Positions 7,207 to 27,814 of a DNA stretch of 28,091 bases are shown here, piece after piece. Under the pieces are notes generated by a model that was given only the letters and a program-made list of their open reading frames with translations, did no database searches and had not been told where the DNA came from. Made by a program: the position numbers and the translations under genes. This DNA is from a virus: positions 1-28,091 of IMG/VR virus record IMGVR_UViG_3300003322_000642. The stretch is one strand, 5' to 3'. The first letter of the stretch is position 1. Every line of letters begins with the position of its first letter.

Positions 7207-7235
7207 ATTATACTAAGTCATGCATGACTTATCAA
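7207..7235 (-). promoter_or_regulatory. Strong sigma70-type promoter before the gpL-like gene
   Basis: On the minus strand the -35 TTGATA (7230-7235), a 17-base spacer and the -10 TATAAT (7207-7212) form a near-consensus promoter. The spacer contains almost the whole palindrome of 7214-7231, so a bound protein would compete with or remodel RNA polymerase. The predicted start of transcription is about 2-3 bases before the gpL-like ATG. Confidence 0.75.
7214..7231. promoter_or_regulatory. 18-bp palindrome, operator-like site
   Basis: A perfect 18-bp palindrome (TAAGTCA, TGCA, TGACTTA) lies in the 42-base gap between the gpM-like stop and the gpL-like start. It is one of about ten copies in the window and sits between the -35 and -10 boxes. 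Confidence 0.85.
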
Positions 7236-7239
7236 CAAA

Positions 7240-7599
7240 CTATGCCTGTTGCAACTCCAGCTGCACGTCCCACAACTGGGCCACGCCGAGGCCGGTGTAC
7301 TTGAACTCCGGCTGGCTGGTAAAGCGTACCTGAAAGACCGCCTTGCTGACCGGGTCGGTCCAGTCGAAGATCACGCTGCCGTTCACCTCGTCGTAGAAGT
7401 CCATCAGGCGCTGCTTGTCGGCGTTGCCGATGCCGGTATAGCCGGTCGTCCAGGTCTTGCGCGGCTTCCTGGTGTGCTTGGCGCGCGACACGACATAGCC
7501 GCCATCCATTTCGGTCTTGAGGGACTTGTCTTCCTGCTTGACCGTGTAAAACTTGGAGTCCTGCTCCTTGTCCATCGTCGGAAAAATCGGATTCGTCAT
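7240..7599 (-). CDS. M: Minor tail protein, gpM-like
   Basis: A 119-aa protein similar to lambda gpM, a tail-tip component that joins after gpL/gpH. Diagnostic stretches are NADKQRLMDFYDEVNG and FDWTDP followed by a beta-rich end containing AQLWDVQLEL. Its start overlaps the tape-measure stop in an ATGA, so it is translationally coupled, and the order tape measure, M, L, K-like matches lambda. It ends just before the palindrome/promoter at 7207-7235. Confidence 0.9.
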   Translation of the reverse strand: MTNPIFPTMDKEQDSKFYTVKQEDKSLKTEMDGGYVVSRAKHTRKPRKTWTTGYTGIGNADKQRLMDFYDEVNGSVIFDWTDPVSKAVFQVRFTSQPEFKYTGLGVAQLWDVQLELQQA

Positions 7600-10500
7600 T
7601 TCATTGCCTCTTTCATGGAGCTACGGAACGGGCCAGGCGTCTGCACGGCGGTCATCACCACATCGAGCACGTATTGCCTACCATCGAAGCGCACGTTGCC
7701 CTGCTGCGCGTTGACCTGCTGGCCCGTCTGGTTGATCACGTTGACCGACACGGACGGGACCGCGGGCTGCTGACCACCGCCCTGCATATTCATCGTGACC
7801 GGGATCGTGCGGCCATCCGGCAGCGGCACGAACGCTTCGGGGCCGGCCTCGCCGTAGATTGCGACCTGTGGGCTGTTGGCGATGCCGCCGTTGGCGTATT
7901 TGCGCAGGCTCATGAAGCCGTCGGCCGTCAGGATGCCGCCGTTTGCCGCGTAGCCCGCGAAGTCAAGCAGACCCTCGGCGCTCGCCGCGCCGCTCCACGC
8001 GCCGTCACTACCCGCGCCAGAGCCACCGAACAGGCTGCCCAGGAAGCCGCCACCGCCACCGCCGCTATTCATGAGGTTTTCGGCGAACATTTGCAGGGCC
8101 GGGATCACCTCGCTCATGATCGACGTGCTCATGGCCGTGGTAGCCGTTGCTGCCGCGGTGTCAGCGGTGGCGCGCGAGGTTGCCGCCGCGCTGGCCGTAG
8201 CGTCACCGGAGCCACCTGCCAATCCGAACACGTTCTTGCCCACCCAGCTGGCGCCGCTGTTGACCATGTCCTTGAGCGGGTCGGCCAACACCTGCTTCAA
8301 CTTGGCATTGGCGATATCCATCAACACGCCCTTGACGAAGTCGCCCACGGCCAGGCGGCCGGTCGACAACGAGTTCGTCAGCATGGACACAAAGCTGTTC
8401 ATCGTGTTGCCGCCGATCTCGTCGACGGACTTGTAGGCGTCCTTCCACTCGATCGCCATTTTGCTGGCGGCCGACTGCTGCGCCAGAATCTCCTGCTGGC
8501 GGCGGATTTCACGGCGATTCGCGGCCTCCTTATCGATCTGGTCGCGGACCTGCGTGGCCGTGTTGATGATCTCGGTGATCCTGTCCTGGGCCTTCTTCGT
8601 CGGCGGGCCTTCTGCCAGGATCGAGTTGATCGCCTCGGTCTTCCACTTTTCGAGGTTGTCGCGGCGAATCTGGTAAGTCTGCTCGTCCGTGTCGCGTGTC
8701 AGCTTGAGCTGAGCCTGGGTGCGCTCGCGCTCCGTCGGCAGCAGGTCGATCTTGTCCTTCTTGTTCGATGCATGCAGATCGGCGGCGTAGTTGGCGGCAT
8801 CCGCGCCGGCCTGCTCGAACAGGGCCATGTTCTTGGCTTTGCGCCATGCCAAGAACTCGGTCGCGCCAGCACCCAGGCGGACCTTGGCACGCTCCAGCTC
8901 GCGGTTCAGCGCGCGGAATGCATCGGTCTGCTTCGGCGCGCCGTCGTCAGCAATACGCTCCATCGCAGCGTTGATCTCGGTGGCGCCAGCGGCCACGCGC
9001 TCGTTGGCGAACTCGATCGCCTTGATCTGCTCGGCAGACAGCATCTCCTGGAGAGTCTTGTCGCGCAGCTGCTTCATCTGATCACCGTTCCAGTCCGGAC
9101 GCTTCTTCGGATCCTTGTCGTGGTTCGGCGTGTAGTCGGCAGCTTCCCATTTACCGCGGATCAGGGCGTCGGCCTGCTTGCGCAGCGCATCCACCGTCTC
9201 GGCGCCGTCGACCAGCGACTTCAGCTTTTCCTTCTGCTCGTTAAGCTTACTGTCGGCCTCGCCCAGCGCCTTAAGCAACGGGTCGCGATCGGCCTTGTCA
9301 CCCTCGCCGGCCGCAGCCGACTTGATCTGTGCCAGCTGGGCGGCCGACGGCGCCTTAATCTCCGGCGTCTTGACCGGATGGGCGGCCGGCTTCGGTGCGG
9401 CAGGAGCGGCCGGCTTGGCGGCAGCCGGCTTCTCGCTGTCGAACTGCACGCCCATGGTGGCCAGGCGCTGCTGCAGGTCGGCGTTGTTGCGCGCGACCGC
9501 CTTCTTGTAGCCCTCATCGTCGCCGGTAAAGAGCGACTTGACGTACTCCTTGAAGTTCGCCGCCTTGGTCATGAAGCGGTCGAGGAAGCTGATGAGCCAG
9601 GTGTCGATGCGTGCGCCGAATACTTCGATGCCGGCGACGACGTTCGCGAAGTCCCAGACCATCAGCAGCTCGCCAACCAGTGGGATCATGCGCAGGAAGG
9701 CTTTACCGACGATCTTGGCCATCGAAGTGGCGGCCGTGCCGATCGAGCGAAAGCCCAGCGCAATGCGCGATGCTGCCGAACCGCCGCCGTTGATCGAGGC
9801 GGCCATGCCCAGGACGCTGGCGTTCAGCGCCGGCATATGGGTCATGGCGCCGGCCTTGACGGAGGCCCAGACGTTGTTGAAGTGGCCGGTCAGAGCCGCC
9901 CAGGCACCGCCGGACGCGATGGCCTGGCCACCAGCGGCTTGTGCAGCTGCGCCGGCACCGCCCAGCCCGCCGATTATCGTGCGCAGGATGCTCGCGGCCG
10001 AGTTCATGGCGCCGAACATGCTGGTGAAGCCCTTGATGCTAAGGAGCGCGCCGGCGGCAGCTGCACCGATCACGGTCAGCTGGGTGGCGATCGGGTTGTT
10101 GGCGGCAAAGTCCTGGGCCGACTTGACGATGCCCGACAGCGCTTCAAACAGTTTCGTGACCACCGGCAGTACGGAATTGCCGACCGTGATCTTCAGGTTT
10201 TCGACCGCCTTGTTGAACGCATCGACATTAGCGCCATAGGTCTTCATGACCTCGGCATTCATGTCAGTGGTGTTCTTGGAGTTCATGACCGTGTTGGCCT
10301 GCGCGTGCGCGCGCTCCATCGCCGCCGAGTTGCCGGCGGTGGTGAGCATAGCCACGGCGTTGGTCGACCAGCCGGTGCCGACCGCGAACTTCATCATCGC
10401 GTTCTTGATGGCGTTCGGGTCTTTCGGGTCAGCGCCATCCGGGAAGAACTTCTTCAGATTCTCCGGCTTGGACATGTAAGCCAGGGCGGCCTTGGAGATG

Positions 10501-12281: not shown

Positions 12282-12284
12282 GTC

Positions 12285-12970
12285 TTACCTCGATCGTACA
12301 GAGCCAATACCTTCCCCGGCCATGCGTTTCAGGTCCGCAAAGCCAGCCTCGTCACGCTTCGCGTTGCGGGGATCGTTCTCCAGTGCCTGACCGTCCATCT
12401 TGACGATCTCGCCGGCCTCGATCACAAGCGCTTCGCGGAATTGCTGCACACCTTCCGGCGTTGCCTGGGCCATCTGGGCAACAGTCACGGCACGCATGTC
12501 GTTTCGGGCTTCGATCCGGTCGATGTTTGTGGACATCAGCCAGAACGTCTTCAGCGGCAAGCGCATCACCGCGTCAAAGCCCATCGAATAGAAGTGGGCG
12601 ACCCGGCAGAAGAAGAACCCGAAGTCGAGTTCTTCCACCTGCGGGTCGATTACTTTCCCGCGTCTTCTGCGGCCTGCTCTGCCTGCTCCACGTCCTCGCC
12701 GCGGACAAACTTGACGATCACTTCCAGGGTTTCCGGGTCGTATTTGGTCAGCTTTTCGCGCGGCAGGGTCGGAACCTGGCGCAGGATCATGTTGATGGTC
12801 GATTCCAGCTGGTCGGCGATGCTGCCGCCCTCCGACATGATCTTTTCGACCGAGCGGGTGGTCTCGATGAAGCCGTCGACGGTCATCGGGTGGATCGGAT
12901 ACGCGACGCCGTCGATGGTCAGTTGGCGCTCCGGTGCCTTGTTCAGCTTGTCCAGGTTCAGAATCTTCAT
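12285..12970 (-). CDS. Tail assembly chaperone GT-like fusion made by -1 frameshift
   Basis: The downstream open frame (12285-12652) has no independent start with a good Shine-Dalgarno and begins in the end of the gpG-like gene. The zero frame reads GCG GGA AAG TAA, so the heptamer GGGAAAG (12653-12659) lies in the X XXY YYZ register directly before the stop. A -1 slip gives GGG AAA GTA and continues through VIDPQVEELDFGF to a stop at 12285. The fusion would be 228 aa: 106 from gpG and 122 from the T-like frame. Lambda makes gpGT at the same heptamer. The gene ends 3 bases before the tape measure, the protein this chaperone binds. Confidence 0.88.
12650..12970 (-). CDS. Tail assembly chaperone, gpG-like
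   Basis: A 106-aa zero-frame product starting MKILNLDKLNKAPERQLTIDG, followed by a helical region and an acidic C-terminus EDVEQAEQAAEDAGK. It lies between tail tube and tape measure, as gpG does in lambda. It should coat the tape measure and recruit tube subunits together with the frameshifted longer form. The ATG is preceded by AAAGGA. A hairpin and a palindrome lie just upstream. Confidence 0.92.
   Translation of the reverse strand: MKILNLDKLNKAPERQLTIDGVAYPIHPMTVDGFIETTRSVEKIMSEGGSIADQLESTINMILRQVPTLPREKLTKYDPETLEVIVKFVRGEDVEQAEQAAEDAGK
12653..12659 (-). other. Programmed -1 frameshift slippery heptamer GGGAAAG
   Basis: Identical to the lambda G/T slippery heptamer, in the correct register and directly before the TAA stop of the gpG-like gene. 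Confidence 0.88.
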
Positions 12971-13042: not shown

Positions 13043-13071
13043 ATTTTAAGTCACATGTGACTTATCATCAA
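13043..13071 (-). promoter_or_regulatory. Putative promoter before the gpG-like gene
   Basis: Minus strand TTGATG (13066-13071), a 17-base spacer and TAAAAT (13043-13048). The spacer holds most of the 13047-13064 palindrome, the same geometry as before the gpL-like gene. A transcript from here would meet the 12991-13021 hairpin within about 20 bases. Confidence 0.5.
13047..13064. promoter_or_regulatory. 18-bp palindrome, operator-like site
   Basis: A perfect palindrome, TAAGTCA, CATG, TGACTTA, lies 13 bases after the tail-tube stop. It belongs to the window-wide family. Confidence 0.85.
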
Positions 13072-13077
13072 GCCACA

Positions 13078-13614
13078 TTAAGTCGGGTATGTGGCCGGCG
13101 GGCGCTTGCCAACGTAGAACAGCTTGTTGGTCTGCGGGTCCGGGTAGCCGGTAAACTCCACGTCGAAGATGCGCTCGTTCTCCAGCTTGTACGCGAAGTT
13201 CAGCGCACCCGGCGTTGCCGTCAGCGGGATCACGAAGTCTTCCGAAAAGTCCGAGTCCGGCAGGGCAACCGGGTGCAGGCGCAGTTCGCGCGCGATCGAC
13301 AGCAGGTCGGTGCCGATGCCCGAGGTGACTTCCACGTACTTCTTGGACGCATCGTCGGCGTCGTCGTGCATGCTGGCGCCAGGCATGATGCGGACCATGT
13401 TGTCCAGCGTGGTTTCCGCCAGTGGCACCTTGGCGGTGACTTCGCGGCCCATGATGTACTCGTTGATCGTGGTCTTGCCGAACTGGTCGACGTTGACCTT
13501 GTGGGTGTCGGTCTTCACCGACACTTCGACGCCGCCTTGGGTGTAGCCGAGGTCTTCACCATTGAAGAAGACCTTGCAAACGCCCAGCTTGACGTTTTTG
13601 GTATCACTTGCCAT
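13078..13614 (-). CDS. Major tail tube protein
   Basis: A 178-aa protein opening with MASDTKNVKLGVCKVFFNGEDLG and containing TQGGVEVSVKTDTHKV, a pattern common in siphovirus tube proteins (the first strand pair of the tube beta-sandwich). It should polymerise into the hexameric-ring tail tube. It stands alone: a palindrome and probable promoter upstream, a strong AAGGAG Shine-Dalgarno 7 bases before the ATG, and a hairpin downstream. This fits a gene that needs a high copy number. Confidence 0.92.
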   Translation of the reverse strand: MASDTKNVKLGVCKVFFNGEDLGYTQGGVEVSVKTDTHKVNVDQFGKTTINEYIMGREVTAKVPLAETTLDNMVRIMPGASMHDDADDASKKYVEVTSGIGTDLLSIARELRLHPVALPDSDFSEDFVIPLTATPGALNFAYKLENERIFDVEFTGYPDPQTNKLFYVGKRPPATYPT

Positions 13615-13642: not shown

Positions 13643-13660
13643 TAAGTCATGAATAACTTA
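13643..13660. promoter_or_regulatory. 18-bp near-palindrome upstream of the tail tube gene
   Basis: TAAGTCA, TGAA, TAACTTA, with one mismatch in the second arm. It begins 8 bases downstream of the -10 box of the 13669-13697 promoter, so a bound protein would sit at the start of transcription. Confidence 0.75.
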
Positions 13661-13668: not shown

Positions 13669-13697
13669 ACTATACCATAAATGATGCAATTTGACCA
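13669..13697 (-). promoter_or_regulatory. Putative promoter of the tail tube gene
   Basis: Minus strand TGGTCA (13692-13697), 17 bases, TATAGT (13669-13674) preceded by TGG, resembling an extended -10. The -35 is weak (4 of 6). It lies in the 86-base gap after the gp10-like gene. Confidence 0.5.
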
Positions 13698-16395: not shown

Positions 16396-16851
16396 TTACG
16401 CTCCCTGCTTGGCCAGGATAGCGCGGATCAACTCGGCGATCGCGTTGCCTTTCACGCCCAGCGGTTCAGCGATGGCGCGCAGGCCCTTGATGCCGTGCTC
16501 GTCGGCGATCGTCGCCAGCTCGTCCTCGGTATAGACCTTGCCAGGTGCGGCGGTGCCATCCGGCTGCACGTCGACGCCAGCCAGGGCGGCGGCTTCCGCG
16601 CGTTGGGTAGCGAGCGCCTGGTCGGCGTTCAGTTCTGCCGGCAGGCCGTTGGTGGTCGTGTGGGCGTGGTCCAGGATGGACTGGGCCACCGATGCGGTCG
16701 TTCCGTCTTCCCATTGACACAGGAACTGGGCGGCCATGCGCACGGCGTCGATCGCCTTCACGTCGGCCGTGGACAGGCCGTCTTCAAAGAATACCGTGCC
16801 CATCTGGCCGGTGAAGTGTTCGTATCCGGGTTGCGTCAGTCGCAGCTTCAT
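16396..16851 (-). CDS. Head-associated protein with C-terminal HeH/SAP-like domain
   Basis: A 151-aa protein starting MKLRLTQPGYEHFTGQMGTVFF, preceded by GGAAAGGAA. The C-terminal 45 residues, TEDELATIADEHGIKGLRAI then GVKGNAIAELIRAILAKQ, show the helix-extended loop-helix pattern of HeH/SAP domains common in phage head proteins and often linked to nucleic acid or capsid attachment. It follows the major capsid gene, separated by a palindrome and a hairpin. It could be a head fibre or decoration protein; the exact role is not determined. Confidence 0.75.
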   Translation of the reverse strand: MKLRLTQPGYEHFTGQMGTVFFEDGLSTADVKAIDAVRMAAQFLCQWEDGTTASVAQSILDHAHTTTNGLPAELNADQALATQRAEAAALAGVDVQPDGTAAPGKVYTEDELATIADEHGIKGLRAIAEPLGVKGNAIAELIRAILAKQGA

Positions 16852-16872
16852 TGGGATTCCTTTCCAGATGTG

Positions 16873-16895
16873 AAAAAGGCGGGCCAAAGCCCGCC
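16873..16895 (-). terminator. Rho-independent terminator after the major capsid gene
   Basis: In the minus direction GGCGGGC pairs with GCCCGCC around a 4-base loop and is followed by five U. It lies between the capsid stop and the HeH-domain gene, so it would reduce downstream expression relative to capsid. Confidence 0.88.
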
Positions 16896-16903
16896 CTCTA
16901 TTC

Positions 16904-16921
16904 TAAGTCACATATGACTTA
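16904..16921. promoter_or_regulatory. 18-bp palindrome downstream of the capsid gene
   Basis: TAAGTCA, CATA, TGACTTA with perfect 7-bp arms. It starts 8 bases upstream (in transcription) of the capsid terminator. A TTGATA lies at its upstream edge but no good -10 at correct spacing follows, so promoter activity here is doubtful. Confidence 0.8.
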
Positions 16922-16931
16922 TCAACAGGAC

Positions 16932-17864
16932 TTAGACGTTGGTGACGCCTTTCAGGCCAGCGATCGAACGGGTCGATTTCAGGGCCAGGCCGGTGTACCA
17001 CTTCAGACGGATGCGGGTCGCATCCTTGTTCTGCACCGTCCCGATGTTCTCGACCACGATACCGGCGTTGTCGCCGCCGTACAGGCCATGCAGGCCGTCC
17101 GACTCGTTCAGGCGCAGGGCGTAGACCGAGCAGGTGTTCGAGGACGAACCCTTGGTCTCGTTTCCAGCCAGGAATTCGTTCATGATCACCGGGATGCCGT
17201 TGTGGGTCAGCATCGGGCGGCCGAAGTTTTCCAGCTGCTGCATCACGGCGTCGGTGCCGTAGGTTGCGCGCAGCAGGGCGCGGAACGCACGGATCGTGCC
17301 ACGACGCATGACGATGACGTCGGCGCCGTTCGGGACAGCGTCGCACAGTTCATCCAGCATGGTCAGGGTCAGCGGGTTGCCGTTCGGACCGGCGTCCACG
17401 ATCTGCGAACCACCAGCGGTTGCAGCGTAGTCCTGGGCTTCCTGCAGCAGTTTCGGCAGGCCGTCGAACATTTTCGGGTTGACGGTCGAGTCGCCCGAAG
17501 CCAGCGCCTGGTGGAACATACGTGCCACGGCCTTGGCCTTCTTCGCGATCTGCACGGCCATTTGCGAGTTGGTGTCGCTCATGGTTGCCTGCAGGAACTT
17601 GTCGATGTCCACGTCACCCGCCAGGATGCGCAGCTTCGCCACGACTTCCTGGAAGCCAGCGGCCGACTCGTTGATCGAGTCGTTCGGGTCGAGCCAGTCG
17701 GCGCCACCCAGGGTTTTCTCGCGGTTGTACACGTACGCCTTACCGTCCGTACGCAGGAACGGCAGAATGGCGAACAAGTCGTCACGCTCGATGATTTCGT
17801 CGATGACGCCGGAGATGAGCTGGTTATTGCTCAGGCTCTCGGCTTCTTCTCGCAACAGAGGCAT
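16932..17864 (-). CDS. Major capsid protein
   Basis: A 310-aa protein placed after scaffold and portal, probably of HK97 fold. Typical features are the N-terminal SNNQLISGVIDEIIERDDLF, a middle P-domain-like helix, RRGTIRAFRALLRATYG, and the strand NGIPVIMNEFLAGNE near the A-domain. It has its own promoter with two palindromes, a strong AAGGA Shine-Dalgarno 8 bases before the ATG and a terminator afterwards, consistent with very high expression as an independent unit. No separate protease is seen, so maturation cleavage is not evident. Confidence 0.93.
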   Translation of the reverse strand: MPLLREEAESLSNNQLISGVIDEIIERDDLFAILPFLRTDGKAYVYNREKTLGGADWLDPNDSINESAAGFQEVVAKLRILAGDVDIDKFLQATMSDTNSQMAVQIAKKAKAVARMFHQALASGDSTVNPKMFDGLPKLLQEAQDYAATAGGSQIVDAGPNGNPLTLTMLDELCDAVPNGADVIVMRRGTIRAFRALLRATYGTDAVMQQLENFGRPMLTHNGIPVIMNEFLAGNETKGSSSNTCSVYALRLNESDGLHGLYGGDNAGIVVENIGTVQNKDATRIRLKWYTGLALKSTRSIAGLKGVTNV

Positions 17865-17920: not shown

Positions 17921-17938
17921 TAAGTCACCGGTGACGGG
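17921..17938. promoter_or_regulatory. Palindrome at the capsid transcription start
   Basis: TAAGTCA, CCGG, TGACGGG: the central 12 bp are perfectly symmetric, but only one outer arm keeps TAAGTC. It abuts the -10 box. An extra TAAGTC half-site lies at 17911-17916. Confidence 0.7.
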
Positions 17939-17967
17939 ACAATACTCCAAAAACGCAACTTAGTCAA
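17939..17967 (-). promoter_or_regulatory. Major capsid gene promoter
   Basis: Minus strand TTGACT (17962-17967), 17 bases, TATTGT (17939-17944) in the 134-base gap between scaffold stop and capsid start. It is flanked by two palindromes, one overlapping the -35 by three bases and one abutting the -10. Confidence 0.7.
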
Positions 17968-17982
17968 GTCACTAGTGACTGA
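17965..17982. promoter_or_regulatory. Palindrome overlapping the capsid -35 box
   Basis: CAAGTCA, CTAG, TGACTGA, with a perfect 14-bp core. The three-base overlap with the -35 is the same as at the terS promoter. Confidence 0.78.
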
Positions 17983-17998: not shown

Positions 17999-18880
17999 TT
18001 AGGTGACGACGTTGTTGATCGCGCCCAGCAGGTTCATCCCCTTCAGGCCGGCTGCGATCTTGGAGGTCGTGTTCAGTGGCGCGGCCGGGGTTTGAACCGG
18101 CTTCGATGCCGTGGCCGACTGGCTGCCGGCGCCCTGCTTCACCTTCGAGCGCAGCAGCGAGTCCTTGTCCGGATCGGCTTCGATGATCTTGCGCATCGCG
18201 TCTTCGAAGGCGACCGGATTGCCCAACTGGTCGACCAGCGGCGCGCGGCCAGCGGCACCGCGCGGCTTGTCGTAGCCGACAACCTTGCCGTCTTGCAGGT
18301 CGAAGTGCGCACCATACAGGGCGCGCGCCTTCGCCGGCGGGATCGTGGTTTCATCGGCGATGAACTTGGACTGGCCGAACTGGGTGCCGACGGACAGTTC
18401 GTCGACGACGCGGTCCTTGGCGGCCAGCTGTTCCTGCAGCGTCTTGATCTGATCCTGCAACGAAGCCGTGACCTTGGTGTGCTCCTCGGCCATGCGCGCC
18501 TTCAGGGTGTCGAACTCGCCCTTGGCGGCCAACTGCGCTTCTTCGGCGGCCTTCTGATCGGCCAGCAGCTTCTTGACTGCATCCGGGTCGATACCTTCGA
18601 ATGCCTTCAGGCGTTCCTGGGCCGCGGCCAGTTCGGTCTCGCGCACCTTCAGGGCGTCCTTCTTCTGCATCACTTCCTTGAGCAGCTTGGCTTCCTCGTC
18701 GGTCGGCTTCTTGCCGTCGCCGGCTGCCTGGGCTTTGGCTGCGCTTTCAGCTGCCGCTGCGGTCTTCTCTGCCTCCGTCGGTTCGGTAATCGGGCTGCCG
18801 CCGGCCGAGCCGGTGGTGCCGTCCGTGGCCTGGTCCGTGAATCGGCGGCCTCCAGGGAATTTCCAGTATTTCGGGTGCAT
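17999..18880 (-). CDS. Scaffolding-like head morphogenesis protein
   Basis: A 293-aa protein directly before the capsid gene. Residues 50-160 or so are charged Ala/Glu/Lys-rich coiled coil (KEVMQKKDALKVRETELAAAQ; HTKVTASLQDQIKTLQEQLA). A GAHFDLQDGKVVGYD segment follows, and a small C-terminal helix (KIAAGLKGMNLLGAI) could be the capsid-binding end. This composition and position are typical for scaffolds that guide procapsid assembly and then leave. The start MHPKYWKFPGGRRF is preceded by AAAGG. The 81-base gap upstream carries no recognised signal. Confidence 0.85.
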   Translation of the reverse strand: MHPKYWKFPGGRRFTDQATDGTTGSAGGSPITEPTEAEKTAAAAESAAKAQAAGDGKKPTDEEAKLLKEVMQKKDALKVRETELAAAQERLKAFEGIDPDAVKKLLADQKAAEEAQLAAKGEFDTLKARMAEEHTKVTASLQDQIKTLQEQLAAKDRVVDELSVGTQFGQSKFIADETTIPPAKARALYGAHFDLQDGKVVGYDKPRGAAGRAPLVDQLGNPVAFEDAMRKIIEADPDKDSLLRSKVKQGAGSQSATASKPVQTPAAPLNTTSKIAAGLKGMNLLGAINNVVT

Positions 18881-18961: not shown

Positions 18962-20596
18962 TCAGGTTGCGCTGACGGTCTTTTTTGCCGTGTCGTTGGC
19001 CGCGCTCTTTTGAAGCGCCGCCTGGTCGGGGGCGGTGACCTGCGCCATCGCCGCGGCTTGTTCGATCGGGTCGACCGGCCATTCCTTCAGGGCGTCGAGC
19101 ATCTTCTGCTTGAGGTCTTTGGCCAACTGCGGGAACAGCTTTTCGATGACCATCTTCATCTGCTCCTGACGAACCTCTTGCGGGGCGTCGATCAGCATCA
19201 GACGTGCAGCGATGTCGAACTCGTCATACAGACCGCGGGTGTCGAAGTTGTCCGGGTACGACACGAGGGTCACTCCGTCGACCTTGGCTTCTTCGCCATT
19301 CCACAGCGCGACAAGGCGCACGATCTTGTTTTCGAGTACTTCCAGGCTGTCCGCTTTCGCTTGCAGCAGCGCGTTGACCCGTTCGAAGTCGTATGCCTTG
19401 GCCACACCGGAGCTGTTGTCGATGCCCAGCGCGTTGTCCTGCTTGGTCCGCTCGCCGGCCAGGCCGACGGTGTGGTAAATCTCGTTGATGATCTTGTTGA
19501 TGACCGCCAGGATCATCTGGGCCTGTTTCGGGTCCGGCGACAGGTAGAACGGCGCCGCGCCGCCCTCGCCGTCGTACAGGAACACGCGCTTGGTGCCCAT
19601 TTCCATCAAGGTGTTGTAGTTATCCGATCCAGGCAGCACGTTCTGCGCGGGCATAGCCAGCTGGGAATAGGTCTGGTCCTGGATGATGGCGTCCAGGTTC
19701 GACAGATAGTTGGCCACGGCCCGATCGAGGTACGCGATGTCGTCGATCAGGGCCGGTGCGCAGTATTCCTCATCCGAGATGATGTGGTCGTGCAGGATGA
19801 CCGGGACTTCGCCCAGGCCATGCGTGCCGTTGGCGATCTCGACGATCTTGGTCCGGTTGGTGCGGCCGATGCGCTGTTCCTCGAACAGACGCCAGTTCTG
19901 CTTGTCCCAGAGGCGAAAGCGCGGGATCAGGGCGCCCGAGGAGGTGAGCGGGTCGGCGTCGTCGCGCGCGACCTCCTGGATCAGGATCCAGTTCAGCTCA
20001 CCGTCGTCATCGAAGGCGTAGTCCAGGAGCTGCGCGGGGCCGACGATGTACGCATAGGTGCGCACGCCAGCCTTCTTCTCGTCTTCCTTGGACACGACCT
20101 CATCGGTCTTGGCATTATTGTCGACCACGATGCCGATGCGACCGAGCACCGACGCTTTCTTGCCCGCCTGGCGCGAGAAGTCTTTGATCCCCAGACCGTT
20201 CTTCGTGGCTTTCGCCCAAAACGCTTTGACGCTTTCGGGGGCGTCGTTGTCGTTGCGGGTGATGTTCTGCTTGAACAGGTATTTGTTCAGGAGGTCGACC
20301 ACCTCACGCGTGTGGTTGAAGCGGTAGCAGCGGGCCAGACGATCGCGGTATTCGTTGTCGCCCTCCTTGATGTAGCGGAAGATGTTGCCGTTCTCGAACC
20401 ACTCGCGGCCCCCCTCGTACGTCGCGTCCAGGAATTCCCAGTGCTTCGCGCTTTCCTTGTACTCGGGGTGCCGGCGCGCGATCAGCGCGCGCAGCTTCTT
20501 CTGATCGTCGTCCAGGGCGGCGATAGCGAAGTTGCTCACGTCGCGCGGGTCGATCGTGGCAACTGCGCCTGGCTTGGCAATGTTGAAGGTAGTCAT
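18962..20596 (-). CDS. Portal protein
   Basis: A 544-aa protein following terL. The N-terminal region (HPEYKESAKHWEFLDATYEGG, then EYRDRLARCYRFNHTREVVDL) and the long helix near residues 380-430 are typical of portal subunits that form the dodecameric DNA channel. Charged and Ala-rich C-terminal residues may form the crown. The ATG at 20596 lacks a Shine-Dalgarno and lies 7 bases after a -10-like TACCAT, so the message could be leaderless, or translation could depend on upstream coupling to terL 39 bases away. Confidence 0.88.
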   Translation of the reverse strand: MTTFNIAKPGAVATIDPRDVSNFAIAALDDDQKKLRALIARRHPEYKESAKHWEFLDATYEGGREWFENGNIFRYIKEGDNEYRDRLARCYRFNHTREVVDLLNKYLFKQNITRNDNDAPESVKAFWAKATKNGLGIKDFSRQAGKKASVLGRIGIVVDNNAKTDEVVSKEDEKKAGVRTYAYIVGPAQLLDYAFDDDGELNWILIQEVARDDADPLTSSGALIPRFRLWDKQNWRLFEEQRIGRTNRTKIVEIANGTHGLGEVPVILHDHIISDEEYCAPALIDDIAYLDRAVANYLSNLDAIIQDQTYSQLAMPAQNVLPGSDNYNTLMEMGTKRVFLYDGEGGAAPFYLSPDPKQAQMILAVINKIINEIYHTVGLAGERTKQDNALGIDNSSGVAKAYDFERVNALLQAKADSLEVLENKIVRLVALWNGEEAKVDGVTLVSYPDNFDTRGLYDEFDIAARLMLIDAPQEVRQEQMKMVIEKLFPQLAKDLKQKMLDALKEWPVDPIEQAAAMAQVTAPDQAALQKSAANDTAKKTVSAT

Positions 20597-20603: not shown

Positions 20604-20633
20604 ATGGTAAATCACTGATGACTTATTCGTCAA
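20604..20633 (-). promoter_or_regulatory. Putative promoter before the portal gene
   Basis: Minus strand TTGACG (20628-20633), 18 bases, TACCAT (20604-20609). The -10 is weak. The palindrome of 20608-20625 fills the spacer, as before the gpL-like gene. Confidence 0.45.
20608..20625. promoter_or_regulatory. 18-bp near-palindrome before the portal gene
   Basis: TAAATCA, CTGA, TGACTTA, one mismatch between arms, in the 39-base gap between terL stop and portal start. Confidence 0.78.
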
Positions 20634-20635: not shown

Positions 20636-21901
20636 CTATCGAGACATGCCGCCAATCTCTACCTTGCGCACCGGGAATTCCAGCTCGATGCAGTAACCGC
20701 CTGCGTCGGCACTGTGCTCGGTGCCGCCGGACTTGTCCACGTCACGGCTGCCAGGCTTGTAGATGGTCTGCTCCAGCGCGTTGATGAAGTATTTGCAGCG
20801 CTCGTCCACGCGCAGACGGATCGTGCCGTCGGCGGCCTTGAGCATCCGGTTCACGGCGTTGACACGGTCGGCGACCGCCGGGTGCTTCTTGCGGTACTTG
20901 ATCCGCTTGAAGCCCTTCTCGCGCAGGATGTCCAGGTCGGTCTCGCCGCGTGCGTGCTGGCGCTGGCCGCCAGCCGGGTCCGGGTAGATCACGATCTGGA
21001 CCTGATTGCGCCAGTAGCGCTTCTCCAGCTCGTCGCAAATCTCCTCGGTGTTGGACGAGAACAGCACGATCTCGTCCACGGCCCACAGCTCGCCGTTCTT
21101 CTGCGGCTGAAAGATCACGGTCGACATCGGGTCGATGTTGAAGTCTATACCCACCCAGATCGGCAGCTTGGGGTTGAACGGGTACTCGCCGGTGTGCTCC
21201 ATCCGGTCGAACGGGTAGTAGACGCGGCCGGACATGGTCTCGAAGGACGCCTCGAACTCCTGCTTGAACGACTTCTCGTCCATGTCGTTGCGCGCGGCCT
21301 CGATCTCCGATGCGGGGATGAACGGCGACGTGATGGTCGGGAACTGCCAGGACGCCCACTGGTTGACGCGCTCGCGCCCCTTCTCGTCCACGTAGATTTC
21401 GCCGCGCTGGCCGTACTGGTACAGCGTGTAGAGGTAGTTGTACGCCTTCGGGGTGCCGATGAAGATGGCGTCGCCCTGCCGATCGGCCAGCGTCGGGCGC
21501 AGCACCTTCGTCCAGGTCTCGGGGTCGATGTCCTGGAATTCGTCCAGCACCAGGAAGTCCACACCTACACCGCGCAGCGAGTCGCCCTTGTCGGCGCCTT
21601 TCAGCTCGATGATGGTGCCGTTGACGAGCGTGATTTCCAGGCGCGTCTCGTTGACCTTGCGGAGCCACCGCTTGGGGATCGCCTCGAGCAGATCGTTCCA
21701 CATGATCTGCTTGGCCATCTTGTAGGTCGGCGCAACGTACCAGATTTTGCTCTTGCGCTTGCGGGCGCGGGTGATGATCAGGACGCGCGAGAGCGCCGTC
21801 TTGCCCCAGCGGCGGCCAGCGACCACCACGCGAAAGCGTTTCCGCGAGCGGTACACCAGCATCTGCTTCGGGTGCAGCTTGAGCGATGCCTTTGCCGCCA
21901 T
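20636..21901 (-). CDS. terL: Terminase large subunit
   Basis: The 421-aa packaging motor: an ATPase pumps DNA through the portal and a nuclease cuts the concatemer. Visible motifs are Walker A GRRWGKT (residues 29-35), Walker B FLVLDE (116-121, catalytic E121) and the coupling motif FIGTP (147-151). The C-terminal RNase H-like nuclease has candidate metal-binding aspartates D223 (GIDF), D278 (YPDP) and D399 (HSADAGGY). The start overlaps the terS stop (TGATG), giving tight coupling. Confidence 0.97.
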   Translation of the reverse strand: MAAKASLKLHPKQMLVYRSRKRFRVVVAGRRWGKTALSRVLIITRARKRKSKIWYVAPTYKMAKQIMWNDLLEAIPKRWLRKVNETRLEITLVNGTIIELKGADKGDSLRGVGVDFLVLDEFQDIDPETWTKVLRPTLADRQGDAIFIGTPKAYNYLYTLYQYGQRGEIYVDEKGRERVNQWASWQFPTITSPFIPASEIEAARNDMDEKSFKQEFEASFETMSGRVYYPFDRMEHTGEYPFNPKLPIWVGIDFNIDPMSTVIFQPQKNGELWAVDEIVLFSSNTEEICDELEKRYWRNQVQIVIYPDPAGGQRQHARGETDLDILREKGFKRIKYRKKHPAVADRVNAVNRMLKAADGTIRLRVDERCKYFINALEQTIYKPGSRDVDKSGGTEHSADAGGYCIELEFPVRKVEIGGMSR

Positions 21902-22545
21902 CAGGATTCCTCGACCACTTCGTCAGGGTCGTCCTCTTCCTCAAGGTCTTCGTCCTGCACGACGTTCTGGTTGGCGCCGGCCGGCATCGCATCCAGGTCC
22001 GCCTCGTCGCGTTTGCGCAGTTCCTCGATCTGTTCAGCCGTCAGCTCGGAGATCACCAGTTCCGGCAGCTCGTCGGGGTTCACGGCATCCGGACGATCCA
22101 GGCCCAGGATGGTGTAGCGCTCGGCACGGGCCTTGGCCAGCACGTCCATCGCCTTGTCCAACGCCTTGAGGTTGTTCATGGCGACGGCGACCGGCTGCCC
22201 ATCCTTCTTCGCCTGCAGGATCTCCGCGTAGGCGAGCTTGGACAGGTTGGCCGACATCGTGTAGTGCTGCTCCTTGGTCTCCTTGATCCGCGCGGCGATG
22301 ATCGTCGCCTCGTCGATCGCGGCCGCGGCCAGCTTCTCGTCGATCTTCTCCTTGATGGCGGCCGCCTTGGAACCCTTGACGATGCCCCGCTTCTTGAAGT
22401 GCCGCTCGAACGAAGACTGGGCCAGGCCGAACTTCTTCATCAAGTCCTCGTACGTGACCGAGCCGGACTCCCAGAGAGCTTCAGCTTCGGCCCACTGTTT
22501 CACAGTCAGGCGGTTCTTCGTCGTTTTCGGTGCTGCTGCTGTCAC
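21901..22545 (-). CDS. terS: Terminase small subunit
   Basis: A 214-aa DNA-binding packaging subunit. An N-terminal helix-turn-helix (VKQWAEAEALWESGSVTYED, then KKFGLAQSSFERHFKKRG) is followed by helices suited to ring assembly and an acidic tail (EDLEEEDDPDEVVEES) that may contact TerL. The GTG at 22545 is chosen because GAAGGAA lies 5 bases upstream; a TTG at 22563 is in frame but would begin inside the terminator U-tract. Its promoter carries a palindrome over the -35, and a repeat array, potentially its packaging site, lies just upstream. Confidence 0.9.
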   Translation of the reverse strand: MTAAAPKTTKNRLTVKQWAEAEALWESGSVTYEDLMKKFGLAQSSFERHFKKRGIVKGSKAAAIKEKIDEKLAAAAIDEATIIAARIKETKEQHYTMSANLSKLAYAEILQAKKDGQPVAVAMNNLKALDKAMDVLAKARAERYTILGLDRPDAVNPDELPELVISELTAEQIEELRKRDEADLDAMPAGANQNVVQDEDLEEEDDPDEVVEES

Positions 22546-22561
22546 TGTATTTCCTTCAAGC

Positions 22562-22593
22562 AAAAAAAACGGGCGCAGGGAGAAGGCGCCCGT
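22562..22593 (-). terminator. Rho-independent terminator before terS
   Basis: In the minus direction ACGGGCGC pairs with GCGCCCGT (8-bp stem, 9-base loop) followed by eight U. It lies downstream of the promoter at 22615-22643 and directly upstream of the terS ribosome binding site, so it should act as an attenuator unless transcripts are antiterminated. Confidence 0.88.
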
Positions 22594-22614
22594 AGGAGGA
22601 ACAATACCGGGCGA

Positions 22615-22643
22615 ACTGTAAGCCTTTTCAGGCGCACTGTCAA
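22615..22643 (-). promoter_or_regulatory. terS promoter
   Basis: Minus strand consensus -35 TTGACA (22638-22643), 17-base spacer, -10 TACAGT (22615-22620). A small GCCTGAAAAGGC inverted repeat lies in the spacer. The palindrome of 22641-22658 overlaps the -35 by three bases. Confidence 0.72.
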
Positions 22644-22658
22644 GTCACGAATGACTTA
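22641..22658. promoter_or_regulatory. 18-bp palindrome overlapping the terS -35 box
   Basis: CAAGTCA, CGAA, TGACTTA. Same offset relative to the promoter as at the capsid gene. It forms the left border of the repeat array. Confidence 0.82.
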
Positions 22659-22671
22659 TTAGCAACACCGG

Positions 22672-22916
22672 GACTTATGCATCAATTCCGAGACTTATGC
22701 ATCCGCTCCGAGACTTATGCATTCCACTCCGCGCCCAAATACTTTCTACTTAAGTCTTTAAGTACTTATGTATTTAAATACTTTATAGAAAGGGGGTGTC
22801 ATGCATAAGTTTCCCAGAAGAAAGCATAAGTCCATTTTTGGGTCACTTCTCCTTACGGAACGACTTATGAGTCATAAGTCGCGGAGAAGAAGCATAAGTC
22901 CGCGGAGTGATAAGTC
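22672..22916. repeat. Iteron-like ATAAGTC array with AT-rich core
   Basis: This is the bulk of the only long noncoding stretch (22546-22917). Three direct copies of GACTTATGCAT start at 22672, 22692 and 22712, exactly 20 bp apart. An AT-rich stretch follows at about 22737-22790, with a TAAGTC at 22751. On the right the same half-site is inverted: ATGCATAAGT at 22801, GCATAAGTC at 22824, a 21-bp perfect palindrome with everted half-sites at 22861-22881, GCATAAGTC at 22892, and ATAAGTC ending at 22916. The arrangement of facing repeats around an AT-rich centre fits an origin of replication, a terminase recognition site or a large operator. Confidence 0.82.
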
Positions 22917-22917
22917 C

Positions 22918-23247
22918 CTACTCCAGCACCTCCTCAATGAAGTCCAGGGCATCCTCCTCGGGAGCGACCGACACCGGCACGGATCTGAGCGCGGATCCAC
23001 CGCCGGCGAAGCCCCGCCCCAGCTCCGTGATGGCGATCGGGCGCCGCTGGCGCCCGCGACGCTTTTCCGTGTCCCGCTTCTCGATCAGGCCGTGCTTGAT
23101 CAGCGCGCGGATCGAGAACTGCAGGCTCGCCTTCGTGGTTTCGTAACGCACGCGGTCCAGAATCTCGTCCAGGTCGCAGGGATCGTCGAGACCGTTACCG
23201 GCCCTGATCACCCGCAACAGCTCAATCTGCTTCGCGGTCAGATGCAT
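22918..23247 (-). CDS. Winged-helix DNA-binding protein, candidate regulator
   Basis: A 109-aa protein resembling MarR/PadR-type winged helices. LTAKQIELLRVI forms helix 1, DLDEILDRVRYETTKASLQFSIRALIKHGLIEKR the helix-turn-helix, and EKRRGRQRRPIAIT a strongly basic wing; an Ala/Gly linker and an acidic end follow. GAGG lies 6 bases before the ATG, and the start overlaps the GNAT gene by 26 bases. It is the last gene of the accessory operon and directly borders the repeat array, so autoregulation and control of the palindrome family are plausible. This role is inference. Confidence 0.85.
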   Translation of the reverse strand: MHLTAKQIELLRVIRAGNGLDDPCDLDEILDRVRYETTKASLQFSIRALIKHGLIEKRDTEKRRGRQRRPIAITELGRGFAGGGSALRSVPVSVAPEEDALDFIEEVLE

Positions 23248-24202: not shown

Positions 24203-24279
24203 GTCGGCCACCTCCAAATAAAGATGATGCCGACCGCGATCATGCCGAGGGCAAAGGCTTCGAAGGTGCTCACGCTCAC
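24199..24279 (-). CDS. 26-aa single-span membrane peptide (tentative)
   Basis: A GTG-started frame overlaps the thioredoxin stop (GTGA) and ends in an ATGA overlap with the GNAT start. The peptide contains FALGMIAVGIIFIW, enough for one membrane span, and ends RWPT. The two neat overlaps and the hydrophobic content support a real gene, but at this length chance is possible. No function is known. Confidence 0.45.
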   Translation of the reverse strand: MSVSTFEAFALGMIAVGIIFIWRWPT

Positions 24280-24596
24280 ACCCCGGCCGCGGACAGCCAA
24301 CTGCGCAGCTGGGCTTCGGTCTGACCGCCAGCGGATGGTTGGCCCGCGGCCTTGCCGTCCTTGTAGACGATCAGCGTTGGCACGGCGCGCACGCCCTCGG
24401 TGCCGGCCAGATCGCGCTGCTCGCCGGCGTCGACGCCAACCAGGGTGAAGCCGATGTCGCCAGCCAGACGCTCGACCAGCGGCTTCATGGCTTTGCAGGG
24501 GCCGCACCAGCTGGCGTGGAACATGACGACGACCGGGGCGGCGTAAGACGGCTTGAGCACGTCGTCGAAGAAGGCGGTGTTGGTAGTATTCTGCAT
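24276..24596 (-). CDS. Thioredoxin-like protein
   Basis: A 106-aa thioredoxin fold with the active site WCGPC at about residues 30-34 and the cis-proline segment VRAVPTLIVYKDG. It should reduce disulfides in the cytoplasm or serve as a partner, as host thioredoxin does for T7 DNA polymerase. It starts 2 bases after the ABC ATPase stop and is followed by an overlapping small frame and the GNAT gene. Its place inside this operon suggests it works with the modification module or a cysteine-rich partner nearby. Confidence 0.95.
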   Translation of the reverse strand: MQNTTNTAFFDDVLKPSYAAPVVVMFHASWCGPCKAMKPLVERLAGDIGFTLVGVDAGEQRDLAGTEGVRAVPTLIVYKDGKAAGQPSAGGQTEAQLRSWLSAAGV

Positions 24597-24598
24597 AT

Positions 24599-25435: not shown

Positions 25436-25617
25436 TTCTTGCGATCCTCGTAGTCTTCGTCGTCGTACTCCGCGCCGTCGGTCTGCTCCTGCATCCAGGC
25501 CAGCTCACACGCGCAGTACGGGGTTCCATAAGCCGGTCCGGAGCACACGCAGCCCATGCCGCGCGTAACCGGTCGGGTGTTGTTGAGCACGATGCGACCG
25601 CGTTTCAGCTCGGTCAT
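25432..25617 (-). CDS. Small CxC/CxC protein
   Basis: A 61-aa protein with two CxC pairs (GCVC and YCACELAW) about 10 residues apart and an acidic C-terminus (EYDDEDYEDRKK). The cysteines could bind zinc or an iron-sulfur cluster. It is coupled to both neighbours by ATGA overlaps; the upstream in-frame ATG at 25644 lies within the preceding gene and is less likely. Function unknown. Confidence 0.75.
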   Translation of the reverse strand: MTELKRGRIVLNNTRPVTRGMGCVCSGPAYGTPYCACELAWMQEQTDGAEYDDEDYEDRKK

Positions 25618-25781
25618 CGCTTCCAGTTCCAGTAGCGCAGGCACTGCGACGGTGTCAGCGCCTTGTCGCAGTCGACGGTCATGCTGTGGAAGCGCGAGCC
25701 TTCGGTGATCAGACGCACGGCGGCCAGGTAAACCAGACGCCGCGGCATGTGGTCGGCAAGCCAGTTGTAGATGCGCTCCAT
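25614..25781 (-). CDS. Hypothetical 55-aa protein
   Basis: Starts MERIYNWLADHMPRRLVYLA, contains a hydrophobic helix and ends with SQCLRYWNWKR. It overlaps the ParB stop (TAATG) and the next start (ATGA), so the reading frame is well supported by its context. It is basic and aromatic. No function can be assigned. Confidence 0.75.
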   Translation of the reverse strand: MERIYNWLADHMPRRLVYLAAVRLITEGSRFHSMTVDCDKALTPSQCLRYWNWKR

Positions 25782-26449
25782 TATGCTGTCATCGGTGACT
25801 TATTCGCGATACGCACGAACTCCATGAAGGCGTCGGCGCCGGTCTTGCCCGAGTCTTCCTCGATCTGGGCCATGAAGATGGCGACCTCACGCTCGTCGGC
25901 ACCCTTGATGGACTTGAAGCCCAGCGCCTTGGCGATCGACACCGGTTTGTCGCCCGCGGCCGCAATCGTGGCGGTGGTTTCGGCGGCCTGGGTCTCGAGT
26001 TCGGCGTCCAGGTCGGGAACAAAGGCGTCCGTGTTCAGCGCGCCGAGGTCGGCGGTGACGAAGTCCAGCTCCTTGGCGTCGAAGAAGCTCGACAGGTCGA
26101 AGTCCAGGCCGATCAGCTCCTCGGCCAGGATGTCGGCGTCGATGTTGGAGATGGCCACGCGGTTGTCCGCCAGGCGGAAGGCGCGCTTCTCGTCCTCGGT
26201 CATGTCGGTCATCTGCAGGACGGGCACCTGTTTCAGGCCCAGCGTCATGGCGGCCAGGCGCCGGCCGTGACCGGCCAGGATCTCCTCGTGCTCGTCGACG
26301 ACGATGGGGTTGCCGCGCCAGCCGAACTTCTGGATCGAGGCGGCGATCTTGGCCACCTGCGTGTCGTCGTGGACCTTGGCGTTCTTGCTGTAGGGCTTGG
26401 GACGATTGGTGTCCCACAGCTGGATGTCGGTTTGGGTGTGTTGTGTCAT
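25781..26449 (-). CDS. ParB N-terminal-domain protein (methylase-associated type)
   Basis: A 222-aa protein. Residues 15-100 follow the ParB/sulfiredoxin-like fold: NAKVHDDTQVAKIAASIQKFG, GNPIVVDEHEEILAGHGR (with GHGRR at 60-64), then LADNRVAISN. This subtype is usually fused to a DNA methyltransferase, but no methylase domain follows; the last 100 residues are acidic and Ala-rich. It could be a CTP-dependent switch, nuclease or DNA-targeting factor. The start at 26449 overlaps the membrane-protein stop (ATGA); longer frames run into that gene. A palindrome-like site overlaps its last codons. Confidence 0.88.
   Translation of the reverse strand: MTQHTQTDIQLWDTNRPKPYSKNAKVHDDTQVAKIAASIQKFGWRGNPIVVDEHEEILAGHGRRLAAMTLGLKQVPVLQMTDMTEDEKRAFRLADNRVAISNIDADILAEELIGLDFDLSSFFDAKELDFVTADLGALNTDAFVPDLDAELETQAAETTATIAAAGDKPVSIAKALGFKSIKGADEREVAIFMAQIEEDSGKTGADAFMEFVRIANKSPMTA
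25785..25802. promoter_or_regulatory. Degenerate palindrome within the ParB gene end
   Basis: GCTGTCA, TCGG, TGACTTA: one full arm and a GTCA..TGAC core. It lies just upstream of the 55-aa gene start, but no adequate -35/-10 pair is seen. Confidence 0.5.
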
Positions 26450-26631
26450 GGATGGCTCGCGGAAATAAGGAAGCAGAACAGCCACATCAATGCCAGAAGT
26501 GGCAGGACGATGATCAGTATCGCCACCAGCATGATGTCGCGGTACGGCATGCTGGTGCCCGGGTTGGCCAGGCCGCCCAGGAAGACAGCAGCGATGGTGC
26601 AAAGCAGCGCGAAAAGCCACCAGTTGATCAT
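26446..26631 (-). CDS. Small two-span membrane protein
   Basis: A 61-aa protein with two hydrophobic segments, WWLFALLCTIAAVFLGGLA and IMLVAILIIVLPLLALMWLF, joined by a short polar loop NPGTSMPYRD. It starts on the stop codon of the Acb2-like gene (TGATG) and its stop overlaps the ParB start (ATGA). The pattern resembles small phage inner-membrane proteins such as holin-like or exclusion proteins, but without a lysin nearby no role can be assigned. Confidence 0.82.
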   Translation of the reverse strand: MINWWLFALLCTIAAVFLGGLANPGTSMPYRDIMLVAILIIVLPLLALMWLFCFLISASHP

Positions 26632-26951
26632 CAGAAGAACCCCGGCTGTGCCACGGAGCGGGTCAATGCCATCAGGCCCTCCTGGAAGTGGGTGCGGCCG
26701 ATTGAGGCCCAGCGCTCCGGCTCGGCTGCATTCAGACGGTTCTGCTCGTCCTGCTTGTCCGGGGGCACAGGTGGGGCCGGGAAGCGATCAGTGGTCACGG
26801 CACAGGCCGCACGTTGGGCGCGGTGGTGCGCCTGTACTTCGCACACCAGTGCCTGCAGGACCAGGCCCTGCTCCTTGATCTTGTTCATCAGGTCAATCTC
26901 TACCTGCGACAGGTCGCGGTAGCCTTTGATCTTGCGGTGTTGGTTTTCCAT
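26631..26951 (-). CDS. acb2: Acb2/Tad1-like cyclic-nucleotide sponge (anti-CBASS candidate)
   Basis: A 106-aa helical-hairpin protein. It begins near GYRDLSQVEIDLMNKIKEQG and ends WASIGRTHFQEGLMALTRSV then AQPGFF, the two conserved blocks of the Acb2/Tad1 hairpin family; a variable Pro/Ala insert lies between them. Such proteins bind cyclic di- and trinucleotides made by CBASS and so block abortive defence. Tyr11 and Lys26 coincide with residues I recall as ligand-contacting in Pseudomonas phage Acb2. Coupled by TAATG and TGATG overlaps to its neighbours. Confidence 0.82.
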   Translation of the reverse strand: MENQHRKIKGYRDLSQVEIDLMNKIKEQGLVLQALVCEVQAHHRAQRAACAVTTDRFPAPPVPPDKQDEQNRLNAAEPERWASIGRTHFQEGLMALTRSVAQPGFF

Positions 26952-27121
26952 TATTCGTCGAAGTCCTCGTGGCGAAGTGTCATGAACCGCAGCTCGTGAA
27001 CGGACAGTTCTTCCACCAGGTCAATGGCTTCGAACCTGGAACCATCGTGGCAGTCGCGGCACTCGTAGTCGATGTCGGCGTTCACACAGCTGTCGCAGAA
27101 CTCGAAGCGGCGGGAGGTCAT
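26951..27121 (-). CDS. Small protein with two Cys pairs, zinc-ribbon-like
   Basis: A 56-aa protein, MTSRRFEFCDSCVNADIDYE then CRDC, with two CxxC pairs (C9/C12 and C21/C24) that could hold one zinc ion; the remainder (IDLVEELSVHELRFMTLRHED) is helical and acidic. It starts 1 base after the ParB-like stop and overlaps the Acb2-like start. Function unknown; possibly a nucleic-acid-binding or adaptor peptide. Confidence 0.72.
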   Translation of the reverse strand: MTSRRFEFCDSCVNADIDYECRDCHDGSRFEAIDLVEELSVHELRFMTLRHEDFDE

Positions 27122-27122
27122 G

Positions 27123-27773
27123 TCAGTACCCTGCCTGCTTGAAGATGTGGACCAGGGCGTTGCCGGCGTTGGACAGCGTGTCCTCGTCGGTGAAGCCCTG
27201 CTGCTTCTGCACCTTGGTGATCGCTTCCGCGATCACGCTGTCGTCGCCAAGGGGCACCTTGAAGCGCATGACGACGTGGGTCTGGGCTGGCTTCGATGCC
27301 GGGGCACTTGGGGCTGCACCGTCATCGTCCGGGAGATCAAGTTCATCGAGCGATATATTGGTAGCAGCGAAGATCGAGTTGAAATCGGCGTCGGTGAACG
27401 GCATGAAGGCAGCCAGTTCGTCGGCGCCACCGAGGGACTCCAGCAGCTCGGCCAGGCCCAAGGTGTCGTCCTCGCCATAGCGGCCGTTGTCGACGATGCC
27501 AATTTCTTTGGCCTTCCTGTCGTCGATTTCGCCGAGATTCACTACCGGGACGGTTGGGAGGCCCAGACGGATCGCGGAATCGCGCCGGTGGGCGCCACCG
27601 AGGATCTGCAACGTGCCATTGGGGAGTGTGCGAACGATGATGGGTTTAAACATGCCGAGGCGTTTGACCGAGGCGTCGATCTTGGCTTCGTTGTCGGGGG
27701 AGACCACGTTTGTGTTCCAGGGATTTGGCTGGAGCAGCTTGGGGTCGACTTCCTGCTGGAGAATGGTTCGCAT
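27123..27773 (-). CDS. ParB-like domain protein
   Basis: A 216-aa protein with the ParB/sulfiredoxin-like N-domain: LLQPNPWNTNVVSPDNEAKI, RLGMFKPIIVRTLPNG, then LGGAHRRDSAIRLG (box II HRR at about 62-64). The C-terminal half contains an acidic linker (LDLPDDDGAA) and a compact beta/alpha end. No KorB-type helix-turn-helix is evident, so it is not a classical partition protein. It is the first gene of the accessory operon and has only a very close AAGG before its ATG. Confidence 0.87.
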   Translation of the reverse strand: MRTILQQEVDPKLLQPNPWNTNVVSPDNEAKIDASVKRLGMFKPIIVRTLPNGTLQILGGAHRRDSAIRLGLPTVPVVNLGEIDDRKAKEIGIVDNGRYGEDDTLGLAELLESLGGADELAAFMPFTDADFNSIFAATNISLDELDLPDDDGAAPSAPASKPAQTHVVMRFKVPLGDDSVIAEAITKVQKQQGFTDEDTLSNAGNALVHIFKQAGY

Positions 27774-27785
27774 ACCTTATAGCGA

Positions 27786-27814
27786 TTGTGAATAAGTCAG
27801 TAATGACTTATACT
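27786..27814 (+). promoter_or_regulatory. Rightward promoter of the helicase gene
   Basis: TTGTGA (27786-27791), 17 bases, TATACT (27809-27814). Most of the 27793-27810 palindrome fills the spacer. Confidence 0.65.
27793..27810. promoter_or_regulatory. 18-bp palindrome shared by divergent promoters
   Basis: TAAGTCA, GTAA, TGACTTA with perfect arms. It lies inside the rightward promoter and directly downstream of the leftward -10, so one bound protein could affect both directions. Confidence 0.85.

Follow-up and report, generated by a model that had tools for sequence, protein, structure and literature searches.

We analysed a 28,091-nt stretch of viral DNA (IMG/VR virus record IMGVR_UViG_3300003322_000642, positions 1 to 28,091; hereafter, the window), belonging to a parent virus record of 63,208 bases, and in particular a family of 18-bp palindromes lying mostly between its genes, which an earlier note had proposed to be the binding sites of a single regulator. 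According to PHROG searches and gene calls, made with a simple codon model, the window is a late region transcribed leftward. The large subunit of its terminase has 60-62% identity with those of the phages SSU5, Pseudomonas nickie and Rhizobium RHEph10 and 74% identity with those of Acinetobacter plasmids of ~110 kb, and 980 records of public plasmid collections match the window terminase; judging by this likeness, therefore, the window is a part of an SSU5-like phage-plasmid. In this class the structural and packaging genes are related, and in the relatives plasmid maintenance genes (MipZ/ParA, TrfA) adjoin a gene for an XRE protein. No plasmid maintenance genes were found on the window's own contig (63 kb of an incomplete genome), which corresponds to approximately 39-104 kb of a close relative, G001, with a nucleotide identity of ~81% where aligned. 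The relatives were collected through terminase matches; a scan of genome contigs gave one remote relative only. Rfam families had no match within the window.

The genes, the palindromes (as candidate operators, with mismatches counted against TAAGTCA-N4-TGACTTA) and the main predicted promoters are the following:

6565-7197, minus strand: minor tail gene
7207-7235, minus strand: promoter TTGATA (7230-7235)-N17-TATAAT (7207-7212), predicted from the sequence, enclosing the 7214 operator
7214-7231: operator TAAGTCATGCATGACTTA, exact match, upstream of the minor tail gene
12650-12970, minus strand: gene downstream of the 13047 operator
13043-13071: predicted promoter TTGATG-N17-TAAAAT, at the 13047 operator
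13047-13064: operator TAAGTCACATGTGACTTA, exact match, upstream of 12650-12970
13078-13614, minus strand: Ig-domain gene
13643-13660: operator TAAGTTATTCATGACTTA (minus strand), one mismatch, upstream of the Ig-domain gene
16396-16851, minus strand: gene downstream of the 16904 operator
16904-16921: operator TAAGTCATATGTGACTTA (minus strand), exact match, upstream of 16396-16851
16932-17864, minus strand: major capsid gene (PHROG 212, E 4.8e-92), a structural gene under putative operator control
17921-17938: second capsid operator, three mismatches with one arm degenerate, over the predicted start point
17939-17967, minus strand: predicted major capsid promoter TTGACT (17962-17967)-N17-TATTGT (17939-17944), with an operator on each side
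17965-17982: operator abutting the -35 box of the major capsid promoter, two mismatches
17999-18880: scaffold gene
18962-20596, minus strand: portal gene (PHROG 145)
20608-20625: operator upstream of the portal gene, one mismatch
20636-21901, minus strand: terminase large subunit, second gene of the terminase operon
21901-22545, minus strand: phrog_867 DNA-binding protein, terminase operon
22615-22643, minus strand: predicted terminase-operon promoter TTGACA (22638-22643)-N17-TACAGT (22615-22620), its -35 box overlapping an operator arm
22641-22658: operator upstream of the terminase operon, one mismatch
22918-23247: winged-helix protein
25781-26449, minus strand: ParB-like gene
25785-25802: weak operator in the 3' end of the preceding gene, three mismatches
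27123-27773, minus strand: second ParB-like gene
27793-27810: operator upstream of the second ParB-like gene, exact match

All the ten palindromes listed in the earlier note were found at their coordinates. With at most three mismatches, the pattern TAAGTCA-N4-TGACTTA has 12 matches in the window, against an average of 0.25, and never more than 2, in 100 dinucleotide-preserving shuffles of it; two of these matches were not considered members of the family, the one at 3660 being within a tail-fibre-sized gene and the one at 22751 being part of a different repeat array. On the parent contig the pattern has 27 matches and the reversed pattern gives 4. Nine of the ten sites are wholly outside gene calls, as the note had also claimed, in the 4.9% of the window that is intergenic by the same calls (binomial P ~2e-11). 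The exception is 25785, wholly within the 3' end of a ParB-like gene; we nevertheless count it as a real site on sequence comparison, because matches with at most two core mismatches recur at the same gene end in five of nine genomes, the window's own counted. The description of the family had to be partly revised: the variable centre stands, but the true core is AGTCA-N4-TGACT, with TA/TA flanks in the clade of the window and with nearly invariant T, C and A positions in the AGTCA arm, and in two of the ten members, 17921 and 25785, one outer arm is degenerate.

In complete relatives (105-118 kb) the exact core AGTCA-N4-TGACT occurs 14-30 times per genome, and permuted palindromes 0.1-0.3 times. 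In most of these genomes, the relative G014 being left out of this count, ~90% of the cores are intergenic, with intergenic DNA representing about one tenth of the genome. Hence the density is not equal inside and outside genes, and the enrichment holds against shuffled sequence in the window and against permuted palindromes in the relatives. Conservation at the same gaps, which the earlier note had also taken as a touchstone, was observed too: a site is present in 8/8 relatives in the gaps before the major capsid, portal and Ig-domain genes, in 7/8 before the terminase operon and before the ParB-like gene 27123-27773, in 6/8 before 12650-12970, and in 3/8 for both the 7214 and the 16904 gaps. 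Comparable gaps that lack a site in the window (e.g. the one preceding the scaffold gene) are also empty in the relatives, at one mismatch or fewer.

The sites had also been described as overlapping promoter-like sequences, and many of them are in fact fused to sigma70-like promoters, the palindrome being within the -35/-10 spacer, abutting the -35 box, or over the start point. Precisely, of 263 intergenic sites, 54 have TATAAT (at most one mismatch) at +13/+14, counted from the start of the core, with 12 as the mirror-strand figure, and 22 have it at +36, with a mirror-strand figure of 0; TTGACA-N17-TATAAT (at most two mismatches in each box) with an abutting operator occurs in 28 sites against 0 antisense. 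We chose the mirror strand as the control for the -10 counts since the flank of the operator already contributes part of a -10 box. In the window, the operators at 7214 and 13047 occupy 17-bp promoter spacers, the former in a register class that is enriched over the antisense control, and the one at 20608 is within the spacer of TTGACG-N18-TACCAT (20604-20633). The 13643 operator is just downstream of a -10 box, TATAGT, at 13669-13674, and the 27793 operator just after the promoter TTGCCA-N17-TAAAGT (27812-27840). The two capsid operators are 44 bp apart. The terminase-operon promoter is in the register of the 28 sites above, and its layout, as judged by eye, is the same in relatives.

These predicted positions suit repression. 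A regulator that activates promoters in the style of late-gene activators could use the sites that abut a -35 box, but many sites occupy the spacer or cover the start point, as is typical of repressors, the -35/-10 boxes are near consensus and would need no activator, and the sites are found at early and late operons alike, so that we regard activation as quite improbable. The resemblance to stoperators or late-gene regulator sites, suggested in the earlier note, is therefore retained as regards the dispersed set and abandoned as regards the mode of action: the sites, many of which keep a fixed register with -35/-10 boxes, appear for this reason to be operators at promoters and not stoperators that block elongation, and, since a temperate phage-plasmid has them at its early as well as its late genes, to belong to a lysogeny (immunity) regulon rather than to late-gene activation. 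We also considered whether the palindromes are RNA hairpins (terminators or processing sites), given that they could fold into a 7-bp stem closed by a 4-nt loop and that terminator-like hairpins are just downstream of some sites. However, the palindromes have no U-run, and many are upstream of the predicted start point, hence outside the transcript. Moreover, their mismatches are one-sided: the two arms were never seen to change together at their inner positions, and at the outer ones they do so not much more often than by chance (34 times against 25 expected, and 58 against 41), i.e. without the covariation of an RNA stem. We rejected the hairpins as very improbable.

As for the regulator, an XRE (Cro/CI-type) protein of ~150 aa is encoded by a conserved gene of the clade, located at 16556-17011 in G001. 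Alone among 67 conserved families, this gene is present in all the six other palindrome-positive outgroups and absent from both the palindrome-negative genomes, nickie and Stenotrophomonas. Within the clade, as in relatives from Cupriavidus, Acinetobacter and E. coli, its orientation is opposite to that of its neighbours, and it diverges from a gene of 63-74 aa and a CobT-like gene. In Cupriavidus and Acinetobacter plasmids MipZ/ParA follows it, in Cupriavidus also TrfA, and in Rhizobium phages its neighbours are RepC and CobT genes, CobT having the same orientation as the XRE gene. Degenerate operator-like sites adjoin its start in most genomes. An independent search with the XRE alignment gave 32 loci, all with cores nearby (1-13 each with at most one mismatch, against 0-3 for the control). 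The protein matches PHROG families of transcriptional regulators at 2e-7, and its predicted structure (mean predicted local distance difference test score 82) resembles 434 Cro and P22 c2, with a target-normalised template modelling score of ~0.8 over ~60 residues; on these matches we assign it to the lambda-repressor-like helix-turn-helix proteins, XRE/HTH_3 class. Two further XRE-type genes were noticed: one (57402-57686 of G001:C1) encodes a truncated, 94-aa paralogue without the recognition-helix region, which could antagonise the repressor, and the other (107220-107906 of G003:C1) a second regulator of 228 aa that adjoins the main XRE gene, with a 228-aa gene at the same position in G004 and no counterpart in other members.

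Other candidates fared worse. A ribbon-helix-helix protein (G001, 74714-75010) has no match in any positive outgroup, the family of the HTH_27 protein beside the 372-base gap persists in palindrome-free genomes, and so do both ParB-like families, for which reason a ParB/parS reading was discarded. A different phage regulator, controlling lytic timing rather than lysogeny, might be sought in the winged-helix, phrog_867 or ParB-like genes, which are conserved and in the window near some sites, one site being just upstream of the ParB-like gene 27123-27773. All of them, however, occur in nickie and Stenotrophomonas, which lack a comparable palindrome family, and none has the divergent, operator-bearing layout of an immunity locus; we consider this explanation improbable.

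The operator sequence shifts with the lineage of the repressor, as seen from palindromes found de novo. In Acinetobacter and Cupriavidus the palindrome is (TC)AGTCA-N4-TGACT(GA), in two Rhizobium phages it is AATCA-N4-TGATT and AAGTAA-N4-TTACTT, and the enterobacterial form is diverged, i.e. TAAGT-N4-ACTTA / GGTAAGTACTTACC. Instead of the XRE gene SSU5 has a gap of 985 bases, yet the palindromes are kept; from this we infer that SSU5 is a repressor-less derivative. If the phages had borrowed the sites of a host transcription factor, a core common to Acinetobacter phages, Cupriavidus phages and the window clade would be unexpected, as would a palindrome that shifts with the phage repressor lineage and is lost in repressor-less relatives; we give this explanation hardly any credence. 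A second genome-wide palindrome family, AAACA-N3-TGTTT, was found in the enterobacterial SSU5-like elements SSU5 (JQ965645), NZ_CP010244 and MZ779062, with 13-14 exact copies, nearly all intergenic and often downstream of -10-like sequences.

Taken together, the comparisons support a dispersed operator set with a single regulator, and we consider it highly probable that the palindromes are operators of a lysogeny (immunity) repressor encoded by the SSU5-like phage-plasmid, the XRE/HTH_3 protein of ~150 aa. Several points weigh against this attribution. Binding of the XRE protein to the palindromes is a prediction from sequence comparison; the palindrome-negative relatives are only two and, on the tree, may represent a single loss; the Pfam HTH_3 match, of 22.4-23 bits with the cut-off at 23, is marginal; none of the structural matches of the model reaches E 0.001; and -10 boxes upstream of the site (at -7 and -4) are as frequent on the mirror strand, so that this class is statistically weak and was dropped as evidence. 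Furthermore, the 63-kb contig of the window, which is an incomplete genome, does not include the XRE gene; the gene would have to be in the unsampled part.

According to the mechanism that we propose, the XRE gene would be encoded off-contig, between the partition/replication module and the CobT-like operon, and a dimer of its product would occupy each palindrome, blocking RNA polymerase at some 25-45 sigma70-type promoters genome-wide, those of structural genes included. The repressor would limit its own expression via the operator at its own promoter, the whole virus would be kept silent during its dormancy as a plasmid, and loss of the repressor would release all the operons.

Lambdoid phages rely on few clustered operators and a transcription cascade. 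The candidate has in common with their CI/Cro proteins (434, P22) the fold (XRE/HTH_3), sites that are palindromes of variable centre, a small divergent gene and an operator at the promoter of its own gene, but the operators of the window clade are at dozens of promoters genome-wide. In the phage-plasmid P1, one C1 repressor acts on 22 operators dispersed genome-wide, at early and late functions (PMC8546580). The two systems are alike in being phage-plasmids with many dispersed sites, which in the window clade are near-identical and overlap promoters of lytic genes (capsid, portal, terminase); the P1 operators, however, are of 17 bp and asymmetric (ATTGCTCTAATAAATTT), whereas those of the window clade are palindromic with an N4 centre and another sequence, number about 30-50 per genome and have a short XRE protein as candidate repressor. 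Cluster A mycobacteriophages (L5) have many dispersed stoperators whose consensus drifts with the repressor, and these are asymmetric, mostly in one orientation to transcription, mostly outside promoters and elongation-blocking (PMC6550527). Sites genome-wide and a consensus changing with the repressor are common to both, but those of the window clade are symmetric, in promoter register and in many cases embedded in promoters. We therefore set them apart from the P1 and L5 site families, since they lack the asymmetry that defines both and many are promoter-embedded; the system would work like a dispersed-operator lysogeny control with a Cro/CI-type repressor, functionally similar to P1 C1 and more loosely to the L5 type. 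A further counterpart is in Cyrano, an SSU5-like E. coli phage-plasmid, where CYRAN_45, syntenic with the XRE candidate and homologous to it, is annotated as a putative repressor and transcribed 10-fold over the prophage background in the E. coli LF82 lysogen; the part of that report consulted names no operator set (PMC9928086), and related enterobacterial genomes have the diverged operator form.

More broadly, we lean slightly towards the view that the dormancy of the whole superfamily (window clade, Acinetobacter, Cupriavidus, Rhizobium and enterobacterial SSU5-like elements) depends on one co-evolving repressor-operator code in dozens of promoters; in that case the palindrome sequence alone would tell immunity groups apart, and loss of the repressor gene would be enough to give rise to virulent members. 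In open-access PMC papers we found no literature on operators or palindromes in SSU5-like phage-plasmids and no description of lytic-gene silencing in these or in Acinetobacter phage-plasmids, elements that are common in public plasmid collections. The palindrome supplies a directly testable regulon, names a candidate repressor and predicts which elements have a common immunity; the reading also accounts for repressor-less relatives (SSU5) possibly acting as virulent phages while retaining the operators.

Some further features of the window were noticed. An intrinsic-terminator-like hairpin (16873-16895) is directly downstream of the 16904 operator, over the predicted promoter start point, and comparable layouts are found in Acinetobacter relatives. 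A strong hairpin of the same kind (22562-22592, CGGGCGC...GCGCCCG followed by T8), between the terminase-operon promoter and the first gene, is visible in most relatives and suggests attenuation or antitermination. Just before the phrog_867-terminase operon, positions 22660-22917 are occupied by an array of CATAAGTC / GACTTATG repeats, inverted around an AT-rich centre; the centre is kept in relatives, some of which have inverted repeats with other repeat words, and the records of SSU5 and Cyrano also begin near this gap. The array, distinct from the operators, is possibly a packaging or terminus site. Lastly, 26631-26951 encodes a protein with an Acb2/Tad1 hairpin domain (Pfam PF24729), likely an anti-CBASS/anti-Thoeris counter-defence.

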